Positions 55,388 to 57,700 of a DNA stretch of 64,000 bases are shown here, piece after piece (position 1 is the stretch's first letter; every line of letters begins with the position of its first letter). Position numbers and translations under genes: made by a program. Below the pieces are notes generated by a model, which saw only the letters and a program-made list of their open reading frames with translations, had not been told where the DNA came from and did not search any database. Source of the stretch: Haloprofundus halophilus (lineage in GTDB: Archaea > Halobacteriota > Halobacteria > Halobacteriales > Haloferacaceae); assembly GCF_003439925.1 (NCBI RefSeq), contig NZ_QQRR01000002.1, positions 310,001-374,000 of the forward strand. The letters run 5' to 3'.

Positions 55388-55758
55388 TGGCTCCGGAACG
55401 CGACGATGCCGAAGGACTCGGCTTCGACGCTCGATTCGACGTTCCCCTCCGCGGCGTCGGCGTCGACGCCGACACTCGGTGCGAGCACTACGACACCGAG
55501 CGGGACGTGATCGCGATCAAGTTCCCCTGCTGCGGCGTCTATTTCCCGTGTTTCGAGTGCCACGAGGCACTCGCCGACCACGAAGCGCAGCGGTGGCCCG
55601 CCGACCGGTTCGACGACCCGGCGGTGTTGTGCGGCGTCTGCGGTGAACGGCTCTCGGTCGCGGCGTACCTCGACTCGGACCACACCTGCCCGTCCTGCGG
55701 GGCGGCGTTCAATCCTGGGTGCGCCTCGCATGCGCACCGCTACTTCGACACGACGTGA
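55387..55758 (+). CDS. CHY-type zinc-finger protein
   Basis: 123 residues. CHY zinc finger: CEHYDTERDVIAIKFPCCGVYFPCFECHEAL, with a Cys/His pattern for two or three zinc ions, and CGVCGERLS and CPSCGAAFNPGC completing. Overlaps trmY start-stop, so translated with it. Function unknown; could bind RNA or protein. Confidence 0.88.
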   Translation: MAPERDDAEGLGFDARFDVPLRGVGVDADTRCEHYDTERDVIAIKFPCCGVYFPCFECHEALADHEAQRWPADRFDDPAVLCGVCGERLSVAAYLDSDHTCPSCGAAFNPGCASHAHRYFDTT

Positions 55759-55814
55759 CGCAGTACCCCGCCTTTCGCAACCCTTAAACATCGTCCCGGG
55801 CAACTCAGTCGTGC

Positions 55815-55887
55815 GGGCCGGTGGGGTAGCTTGGTATCCTTCGGCCTTCGGGTGGCCGTAACCGCAGTTCGAATCTGCGCCGGCCCA
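55815..55887 (+). tRNA. tRNA-Pro (anticodon CGG)
   Basis: 73 bases; GGGCCGG pairs with CCGGCCC in the acceptor stem (discriminator A), D-arm GGGTAGCTTGGTATCC, anticodon stem CGGCC/GGCCG with loop TTCGGGT so anticodon CGG (reads CCG), T-stem CGCAG/CTGCG with loop TTCGAAT. The archaeal GGG start and a TATA-like upstream segment (CCTTAAACAT near 55783) are present. No intron and no CCA encoded. The 3' part is duplicated downstream. Confidence 0.95.
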
Positions 55888-56072
55888 CTTCTCCCGCACT
55901 TTGCAACGACGAGCGCAGCAGGTCGCCCGTAGCGGTGTGAAAGGTTCGCCACGCGGATTCGGGCAGACCAGTCGCGCGCAGCGAAGCGAGCACGTCTGGG
56001 CGAGTTCGAATCTGCGCCGGCCCACTTCTCCCGCACTTCGCAACGACGAGCGCAGCGAGTCGCCCGTAGCGG
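55866..56072 (+). repeat. 70-base direct repeat carrying the tRNA-Pro 3' end
   Basis: Copy 1 is 55866-55935, copy 2 is 56003-56072, offset 137 bases, with 67 of 70 bases identical. Copy 1 begins inside the T-arm of tRNA-Pro and runs through the 3' end and about 48 bases beyond. Integration of an element at tRNA 3' ends leaves such copies; no integrase gene is near, so it may be a remnant or a local duplication. Confidence 0.85.
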
Positions 56073-56277
56073 CGCAGGCATCCGGTGCCCGGGAGTCGGT
56101 GACGCCGCGAAGCTGGCACCCGTCTCGGTCGTCCTAACGGACCGTTTTCTCCCGCCTCGAAGGGGCGAACACCTCCTAAATGGACAATAGACGGACACGA
56201 ACGCGTCCCCGGCGGCGTCCCTCCAGTAGGACGCCCATACGTATCGAATGGGGTGCCTGTCGTCGGTGTGTCGATGG

Positions 56278-56341
56278 ATTACGGGCGAAAAACGGTGGGT
56301 TACGAGCGAAAAACTCCGAATCTCGGGCGAATATCGGTGGG
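56278..56341. repeat. Imperfect tandem repeats of about 21 bases
   Basis: Three units (56278-56299, 56300-56319, 56320-56341) share the pattern CGGGCGAAAAA or near it, each followed by GGTGGG or variant. They lie in the long gap upstream of the ATP-grasp gene. No coding meaning is evident. Confidence 0.55.
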
Positions 56342-56485
56342 ATCCAGGCGTTTGATGGATACCTGAGTTCGATTCTGAAAGACCGGAACAAAGCAGGCGT
56401 TTACGATCCAATAACTGCGTAACGTGGGGCGTAACGGGCTAAACTCAGCAGTGCATTAATGTCTTTCGAAATAGAATTGGTAAGT

Positions 56486-57700
56486 ATGGCTAAAAACTGT
56501 GGGACGAGGGAATCGGTGTTGATTCCCACCGGACTCGGGCCGTCTCGGACGTACCCGACGATACGGTCGCTCGGACGGCGCGGAATCAACACCGTCGTCG
56601 CGTCGGAACACGACAACCCACCGGTGTTCGCCTCCCGGTACTGCGGGGAACGTCTCTCGGTGCCGGCCCCCGATGTCGACCTCGTCGGCTACAAGAACGC
56701 TCTCCTCGGCTTGGCGTCGCGTCCGGACGTTCGGACCGTCATCCCCGCGCGCGAAGAGGACGCGTACGTCTTCTCGCGCTACAGAGACGAGTTCGACGAA
56801 GTCGTCGACCTGGTCGCCCCGTCGTTCGAGGTGCTCCGGCGCTCGCAGGACAGGCTTCAGTTGGCCGCCGCCGCGGAGAAAGCGGGCGTTCCGGTGCCGG
56901 AGACGCGACTGCTCAGCGAAGTGGACGACTGGGAACCGGAACTCATCATCAAATCCCGGTACAACCTCCTCGCGGACGGGTACGTCGACGGCTACGCGCC
57001 CGGACAGTCCTCGAAAGTCAAGAGCGTCAAGCATCTCTCGCCGGGCGAACACCCCGACGTCGACGCCATCTTAGACGAGATGAAACACGACCCCATCGTT
57101 CAGGAGTACGTGGCGAGCTCCGACGAGTACATGTTTGCCGGACTGTACGACCACGGGGAACCGCTGGCGACGTTCCAGCACCGTCAGATTCGGGGCGACT
57201 CCTACGTCGGCGGCGGCGGCGTCTACCGGAAGTCCGTCTACATCGAGGAGCTCGAACAGGTAGCGAACGACCTGTTGAGCGAACTCGACTGGCACGGCCT
57301 CGCGTGCGTAGAGTACATGTGCGACGCCGAGACCGGCGAGTTCAAACTCACCGAGATAAACCCCCGGATGTGGCAGTCGCTCCCGGCGACCGTTCACGCG
57401 GGTGCGGACTTCCCGTACTACTACTGGCAGGCGGCGACCGATCAGATAGACCGCATCGACCCAAGGTACGAGATCGACAGCGGGAGCCACTCGCTCCGCG
57501 GCGAACTCGGTTACGTGCTCAGCCTCTTTCGAGACGAGTCCCCGCACGTCGAGCGACCGTCGCTCGGCGCGACGGCGAGAGAGCTACTCTCGTCGTTCTG
57601 CGAGGACCCCTACCTCGACTACACGCACGTCGACGACCTCGGGCTGTTCGTCAGCGGCGCGAACCGAATGCTCCGAAACCGGCTCCACGGCTCCAGTTGA
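56486..57700 (+). CDS. ATP-grasp carboxylate-amine ligase-like protein
   Basis: 404 residues from MAKNCGTRES. ATP-grasp fold: early Rossmann-like domain (IRSLGRRGINTVVASEHDN), lid with LIIKSRYNLLADGYVDGYAPG and metal/ATP-binding CVEYMCDAETGEFKLTEINPRMWQS. Such enzymes join a carboxylate to an amine using ATP; substrate unknown. The start is placed at 56486 because the TATA-like CATTAATG is 28 bases upstream, making it leaderless; ATG at 56459 would add nine residues. Confidence 0.87.
   Translation: MAKNCGTRESVLIPTGLGPSRTYPTIRSLGRRGINTVVASEHDNPPVFASRYCGERLSVPAPDVDLVGYKNALLGLASRPDVRTVIPAREEDAYVFSRYRDEFDEVVDLVAPSFEVLRRSQDRLQLAAAAEKAGVPVPETRLLSEVDDWEPELIIKSRYNLLADGYVDGYAPGQSSKVKSVKHLSPGEHPDVDAILDEMKHDPIVQEYVASSDEYMFAGLYDHGEPLATFQHRQIRGDSYVGGGGVYRKSVYIEELEQVANDLLSELDWHGLACVEYMCDAETGEFKLTEINPRMWQSLPATVHAGADFPYYYWQAATDQIDRIDPRYEIDSGSHSLRGELGYVLSLFRDESPHVERPSLGATARELLSSFCEDPYLDYTHVDDLGLFVSGANRMLRNRLHGSS

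Follow-up and report, generated by a model that had tools for sequence, protein, structure and literature searches.

This locus raises the question of why the 3' end of an intact tRNA gene, and the DNA behind it, should occur a second time a short distance downstream. The DNA analysed (hereafter the window) is a stretch of 64 kb, G000:C2:310001-374000, from a haloarchaeal genome of 3.47 Mb (G000), in which ARAGORN found a single tRNA gene, tRNA-Pro(CGG). A preliminary description had reported a near repeat of its 3' end, and comparison of 55866-55935 with 56003-56072 confirmed it: 67 of 70 bases are identical, the starts are 137 bases apart and 67 bases separate the two copies. The repeat begins in the T-arm, as had been described, its first 23 bases being tRNA, but the flank that follows measures 47 bases and not 48. 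The copies differ at 55902, 55920 and 55921, all in the flank, and identity beyond them drops to 2/20 and 4/20. Since this is the sole direct repeat in the window with at least 19/20 identity at a spacing of 40-260 bases, it is not a chance similarity.

All parts of the arrangement lie on the forward strand. The intact host gene (55815..55888) ends in the first direct-repeat copy, D1, which runs from the T-loop to the tRNA 3' end (55866..55888) and is followed by a first trailer (55889..55935) with an imperfect hairpin at 55907-55925, the H1 region as read by eye. Further on lie a degenerate inverted copy of the T-arm, I (55953..55964), and a GC-rich imperfect hairpin, H2 (55965..56002), with a recurring core at 55967-55999. 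The second copy of the tRNA 3' end, D2 (56003..56025), is identical to the first at 23/23 positions, and the second trailer (56026..56072) at 44/47. Pairing of I with D2 in a 13-bp stem is predicted, yet the fold energy of the cassette is ordinary beside that of shuffled sequences (z -0.44), and a stable structure was rejected for this locus. An Rfam scan of 55500-56500 (E ≤ 0.5) returned no family, the tRNA-Pro itself being also unmatched there. The gene, found by ARAGORN, is likewise absent from the RF00005 list of G000; tRNA counts obtained with that model may miss genes of this sort.

Two readings had been offered at the outset, an att remnant left after internal deletion and a local tandem copy. 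The repeated block starts at the T-loop and spans at least 22-23 bases, which is not the block of 13-15 bp at the acceptor end typical of SNJ2-type sites. Unlike an att block ending at the tRNA, D2 is followed by a further 47 bases of repeat, so that the trailer was copied too; a later tandem copy explains this more readily than a simple att site does. Neither element genes nor a recombinase lie in the 67 bases between the copies, whereas relative G028 has such genes beside its right copy. The earlier statement that no integrase is present holds for the SNJ2-like P0001 family, whose sole match in G000 (E ≤ 1e-30), C1:1307307, lies outside the window; for other integrase families it rests on the preliminary description.

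The last 32 bases of each tRNA of G000 were compared with nearby DNA, a score D of at least 12 within 320 bases counting as a downstream match. Of the 48 tRNAs listed, one without sequence (L050) was left out, and 29 of the remaining 47 matched their own 3' end downstream, against 0/47 upstream. Mismatched controls, in which the tRNA end of one gene was set against the downstream DNA of another, reached a maximum of 18.0, because T-arms also sit in other cassettes. Eighteen of the 47 loci (D ≥ 20.5) lay above every such control; Gln(TTG) only equalled its own, and among the nine loci with D of 12-15, five did not rise above theirs. At the 20 loci with D ≥ 17, the tRNA part from T-loop to last base was identical at 421/440 positions, compared with 194/480 over the 24 bases after the tRNA end and 117/400 over the 20 bases 5' of the T-loop; the shared block is therefore the T-loop-to-3'-end part of each tRNA. 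D2 stops at the last tRNA base in most of these 20 loci, and over the set the stretch of identity finishes with the tRNA 3' end, as in an att scar. The trailer is copied as well at the focal locus (23/24), Ser(CGA) (22/24) and Arg(TCT) (20/24). The cassettes are gene-free and about 100-250 bases long, and the focal repeat is one member of a common, gene-less kind of "tRNA-tail cassette" found behind many haloarchaeal tRNA genes.

At tRNA-Gly(TCC), Ala(CGC), Arg(GCG) and Arg(CCG) (L038, L045, L074 and L048) the match covers only the last 13-14 tRNA bases, with hairpins adjoining. Its length is about that of published SNJ2-type att sites, three of the four are not above the mismatched controls, and these loci perhaps represent a second kind of scar. 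A direct copy of the anticodon side was considered as a further component of short cassettes and dropped, as it occurred at only 1/47 loci over three genomes; by eye, such a copy does exist at the tRNA-Pro of L013, L017 and L024 and in the G028 and G039 elements.

Between tRNA and D2, the tRNA end and its trailer were found again in inverted form at 20 of 29 loci at no more than 1/300 shuffles. These were plain shuffles, reached by 0/300 at 19 loci and 1/300 at one, with eight loci unclear (11 to 181 of 300), and swapped controls sometimes also reach the score (Ala(CGC) 6/28, Arg(TCT) 8/25, Leu(CAA) 3/27, Glu(TTC) 2/27). The focal inverted copy is weak and not significant (98/300 shuffles; T-arm 6/8). 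Over three genomes, the inverted T-arm resembles the allele (TTCAAATC or TTCGAATC) present in its own tRNA more than the other allele at 33 of 42 loci and less at 3, with ties at 6, and the GC-rich H2 hairpin connects the inverted part to D2. A mimic of a tRNA minihelix was dropped since, by eye, mismatches are frequent in the acceptor part of the inverted copy. A transposon with terminal inverted repeats, a class to which casposons belong, was also rejected, since by eye the cassette ends do not resemble inverted repeats of one another.

The direct-inverted-direct order at those 20 loci is that of a tandem inversion duplication, a rearrangement that, as far as we are aware, has been investigated chiefly for entire genes; at the focal locus it is not significant. 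Replicative inverted triplication, which needs no recombinase, is the main rival explanation. A fork would stall at the tRNA, the nascent strand would fold back at the trailer hairpin and copy trailer and tRNA end in reverse, and a second fold-back at the T-arm would restore forward copying. The inverted copies, their agreement with the allele of the adjoining tRNA and the hairpin-like look of both turning points (by eye) speak for it, as do five comparisons in which the D1 trailer equals the trailer of a copy-free relative. On the other hand, D2 ends at the last base of the tRNA in most of the 20 loci, the window holds no second direct repeat like the focal one, and the hairpin cores described below are common to different tRNAs. 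We regard this route as unlikely, though a serious contender; were it right, tRNA 3' ends would be hot spots for this rearrangement.

The distribution of the hairpins bears directly on this choice. In a sample of 119 genomes of the phylum, the pattern GATTTGAA-N20-50-GTTCAAATC, which detects a single T-arm allele, occurred in 19/22 genomes of the order of G000 and in 4/97 others, and the reversed control pattern was not among the matches listed. Forty stretches from other haloarchaeal genomes, chosen around sites of this pattern and hence a subset of all, contained 52 sites. Of these, 43 have a same-strand tRNA fewer than 450 bases before them and end in at least 10/12 bases of its acceptor end; three of the other nine lack such a tRNA in the stretch. 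The sites span many isotypes, with arrays of up to five units (L317). One H2 family, scanned across the genome collection, gave at least 120 stretches and at least 128 sites. A same-strand tRNA lies less than 500 bases upstream at 116 of the 128 sites listed, 92 of these matching its acceptor at ≥10/12; 12 have no tRNA that near, ten of them none upstream on the same strand in the DNA examined. All 80 titled stretches are haloarchaeal. Identical or nearly identical copies of the focal H2 core stand in other haloarchaeal genomes, for example behind tRNA-Ser (L323) and tRNA-Arg (L335). The core of the H1 trailer hairpin has five matches in G000, all 20-21 bases behind tRNAs, and six, checked in part, in three of the four other genomes of the genus.

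The junctions therefore do not consist of local sequence only: H2 cores are common to different tRNAs and species and H1 cores to several tRNAs of the genus, and purely local copying cannot yield this.

Viruses and plasmids were searched for the same structures. Two scans of the viral collection with T-arm-hairpin patterns returned mostly phage tRNA-Ser genes or coding-like repeats, and no clear cassette was seen among the stretches inspected (the best 45 of at least 120 and the best 40 of 104 by GC; L226 left out). The focal cassette and the att region of G028 gave no match to phages by blastn, H2 included, and against plasmids the focal cassette gave one match and the G028 region none. Plasmid NZ_CP119561.1 of Haloarcula halophila (L470:1847-6662) carries 23 clustered tRNAs, as called by ARAGORN, with genes for a type B DNA polymerase and a TROVE-domain protein nearby. 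What we read as a tRNA-Cys-like gene, split in the T-arm by an H2 hairpin that is an insert or possibly an intron, lies between its tRNA-Asn and tRNA-Glu. Within the genus, four tRNA matches cluster on one strand at G003:C1:2084795-2085475, resembling a viral tRNA cluster.

Cassettes turn over within the genus. At the focal locus a copy is present in G002, interrupted in G004 and lacking at the G001 and G003 loci. Among tRNAs with at least 330 bases downstream, copies were found at 20/54 in G003 and 19/46 in G004, at partly different tRNAs, compared with 2/37 and 0/31 upstream where the sequence allowed the test. Twenty-two comparisons with loci lacking a copy gave a mixed picture: the trailer agreed with that of D2 only in five (Leu(CAA), Leu(GAG) and Asp), with that of D1 only in five (five tRNAs), with both in three, the focal tRNA-Pro among them, and with neither in nine. 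At tRNA-Leu(CAA) of G003, the trailer matches the D2 trailer of G000 and G004 (z 10.7 and 19.6) and not the D1 trailer (z -0.6 and -0.7), and as judged from sequence this appears a clean case of insertion, or of precise excision, between copies. The Lys(TTT) locus of G004 seems not truly empty, because its trailer enters part of an inverted copy (by eye).

Twenty-nine pairs of cassettes behind the same tRNA in two species were compared, ten of near-equal length and 19 differing by more than 3 bases. The near-equal pairs had a mean identity of 0.85, against 0.70 for the 100 bases after D2 (random 0.585), and were higher in nine of ten. The unequal pairs ranged from 0.36 to 0.81, identity being computed over the longer cassette, which lowers values for unequal lengths. 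In eight of the 29 (0.36-0.62, compared with 0.585 at random) the cassette looks, from its sequence, to have been replaced.

The conservation of same-length cassettes, together with a D2 kept nearly identical while trailers diverge and the fixed position of the H1 core behind tRNAs in G000, is what a functional tail maintained by selection would lead one to expect; such a tail might be a hairpin, in RNA or DNA, that terminates transcription, influences processing of the tRNA 3' end or prevents conflict between replication and transcription. However, conservation in the same ten pairs is also seen over the 60 bases before the tRNA (mean 0.89), so that the cassettes are not more conserved than these, and gene conversion from the tRNA would equally keep D2 identical. 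Moreover, 18/47 tRNAs have no copy even at the loose threshold, presence, length and type vary within one genus, and the focal fold is no more stable than shuffled sequence. A selected function is held to be improbable as the explanation.

The preliminary description had held that two copies in every relative, with no element at any, would point to an old local duplication, and that elements lying between the copies and a matching integrase should be sought. The relatives are not all alike. Thirty tRNA-Pro(CGG) loci were listed; a copy with at most 5/24 mismatches lies within 200 bases in ten, and in 13 when up to 7/24 are allowed, the other 17 having none within that distance and three of these (L010, L022 and L025) holding an element instead. 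Elements were indeed found at tRNA-Pro, of 19.6 kb between the tRNA and the next copy in G028, about 37 kb in G039 and about 1.8 kb in G018, all three with GC hairpins at the right copy. A tyrosine recombinase (P0001; Pfam Phage_integrase) lies at the right end of those of G028 and G039; its identity reaches 42% with viral homologues and 47% with plasmid ones. In both elements the att copy can be read as the 3' half of a tRNA-Pro, split in the T-arm by GC hairpins. G028 and G039 belong to two families and their integrases are 93% identical; in the stretch that runs to the tRNA end and contains the hairpins, their sequences agree at 230/240 positions, and beyond it at 64/100, indicating that the hairpins travel with the element. 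The G018 element ends similarly.

About 0.4 kb within the G018 element (L465:1024-1432) is bounded by inverted AGAGCGTGTCATAGAA-like repeats, has a small frame inside and, by eye, looks like a small transposon. Behind tRNA-Val(CAC) of Haloterrigena salina (L382:100-3250) lies an AT-rich stretch of about 3.1 kb with broken integrase-like frames and a 486-aa frame (functions by eye). A complete H2-D2 cassette lies beyond the right copy of this stretch.

Elements at this very tRNA in G018, G028 and G039, and the T-loop-to-3'-end block, which is such as a tRNA-targeting recombinase leaves, sustain the att part of the earlier proposal. The notion of a single remnant, the scar of one large provirus at tRNA-Pro after internal deletion, fares poorly: the anatomy recurs at 18 to 29 of the 47 tRNAs of G000, inverted tRNA-end copies are frequent, the hairpins are common to tRNAs and genera, the 67 bases between the copies are partly palindromic and the trailer is duplicated too. 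We consider this simple case very improbable.

A relative of P0001 (E ≤ 1e-30) occurs in 75/98 genomes of the order. Thirty of more than 150 listed matches, plus that of G000, were compared with 211 tRNA sequences. In ten of the 31 loci the att block begins at the T-loop or close to it, eight have one of 13-14 bases, three one of 33-41 bases and four a whole tRNA, one (L512) has a separate cassette only, and five have none, a class that may include misses because only 211 tRNA sequences were compared. The ten T-loop blocks are not independent, five being at tRNA-Pro(CGG); the integrases of four of these five are 93-100% identical. Fold excess over the 75 bases before the block (z -0.6 to -6.1 for the ten, against 1.0 to -4.2 for the 13-14-base class) overlaps and so does not separate the classes. 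Two of the ten, att copies of tRNA-Tyr beside integrase genes, contain 28/28 (L493) and 26/28 bases (L491) of the focal H2 core (0/1000 shuffles each), which, by sequence, appears to be the strongest link between cassettes and mobile elements. Five of nine virus or plasmid integrase regions have tRNA matches of 13-16 bases, and none of the nine shows a GC-rich H2 before att by eye. In Haloferax phage LSV-48N (L477:2608-2630), 23 bases beside the integrase match tRNA-Pro(TGG) from T-loop to 3' end, exceeding the usual 13-base halovirus att. SNJ2, Humcor2 and HRPV9 gave no att-like match in that search; for Humcor2 and SNJ2, annotation or inspection by eye shows a short acceptor-like match at the end. 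In G000 itself, the SNJ2-like integrase (C1:1307307-1308299, L513) belongs to tRNA-Met (C1:1316933-1317040), with a 14-base block and no H2, probably as part of an element of roughly 9-10 kb.

The reading we favour, on account of the T-loop-to-end block, the hairpins that travel with elements, the core held in common and the turnover, is that the cassettes are gene-less att cassettes, or scars, of tyrosine recombinases that target the T-loop; we give it a probability of about 0.42. A T-loop-cutting enzyme, perhaps of the SNJ2-like kind, would insert a tiny att-only element, or a full element would be inserted and its genes lost later. D1 would then be tRNA sequence supplied by the incoming DNA, which restores the gene, and D2 the original 3' end after its displacement; this would give the order seen: tRNA with D1, the H1 trailer hairpin, I (inverted tRNA end and trailer), an H2 of the shared family, and D2. 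Later recombination between identical 3' ends would duplicate, swap or delete cassettes and so generate arrays and turnover. Several observations weigh against a recombinase origin. The inverted copy is not expected of a plain att site and favours fold-back copying, although it could also belong to the way in which an att cassette is made; in addition, the empty-site comparisons are mixed, the viral att sites inspected are without H2, and the trailer is copied at the focal locus.

A variant modelled on integrons holds that the cassettes are single-strand integrations. Their top strand would form a dumbbell, a duplex of tRNA 3' end and trailer closed by H1 and H2, and, folded in this way, would be inserted at the T-loop border by a tyrosine recombinase, much as attC is in integrons. 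We regard this as a long shot; if true, tRNA genes would be integration platforms and their tails an archaeal integron-like array system. Should the broader att reading hold, some 40 to 60 percent of a haloarchaeon's tRNA genes would bear footprints of a recombination system that is not described as such in the papers searched. It would also account for the stray tRNA fragments behind haloarchaeal tRNAs, make them a record of past integrations, and define H2 plus T-arm as a substrate for a T-loop recombinase.

A search of open-licence papers brought up none whose title or abstract deals with hairpin cassettes downstream of haloarchaeal tRNA genes, which is weak evidence of novelty. According to the excerpts available, archaeal tRNA fragments are leftovers of integration (PMC9897764), partial tRNA copies accompany prophage-like regions in Haloquadratum (PMC3119063), the T-loop is among the known integration positions of archaeal att sites, which are short for SNJ2 (PMC8371274), and a halovirus provirus has a 13-bp att sequence at tRNA-Pro, among others (PMC7911831). 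Like the fragments of the first two sources, the cassettes contain partial 3' copies near the full tRNA; as those excerpts have it, the fragments differ in flanking kilobase elements and in being few per genome, and a hairpin cassette is not mentioned there.

The cassettes resemble the att duplications made by tRNA-targeting elements (archaeal tyrosine recombinases and the SNJ2-like integrases of pleolipoviruses) in that the tRNA 3' end is repeated directly and the tRNA kept whole; they depart from them in being gene-free and at most a few hundred bases long, in enclosing an inverted copy and a hairpin, and in their abundance in G000, and the att blocks of SNJ2 type are reported to measure about 13-14 bp. 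The tyrT repeats of E. coli, associated with rtT RNA, likewise follow a tRNA gene in tandem, every unit opening with the 3' end of the tRNA; they occupy one locus, and we know of no inverted copy or shared hairpin family there. Integron attC sites are also imperfect palindromes arranged in arrays next to a recombinase site, whereas here the stem derives from tRNA sequence and gene cassettes are absent. Finally, REP and palindrome-associated elements and MITEs are short, dispersed, gene-free hairpins as well, but the hairpins described here are linked to tRNA 3' ends, copies of which flank them.
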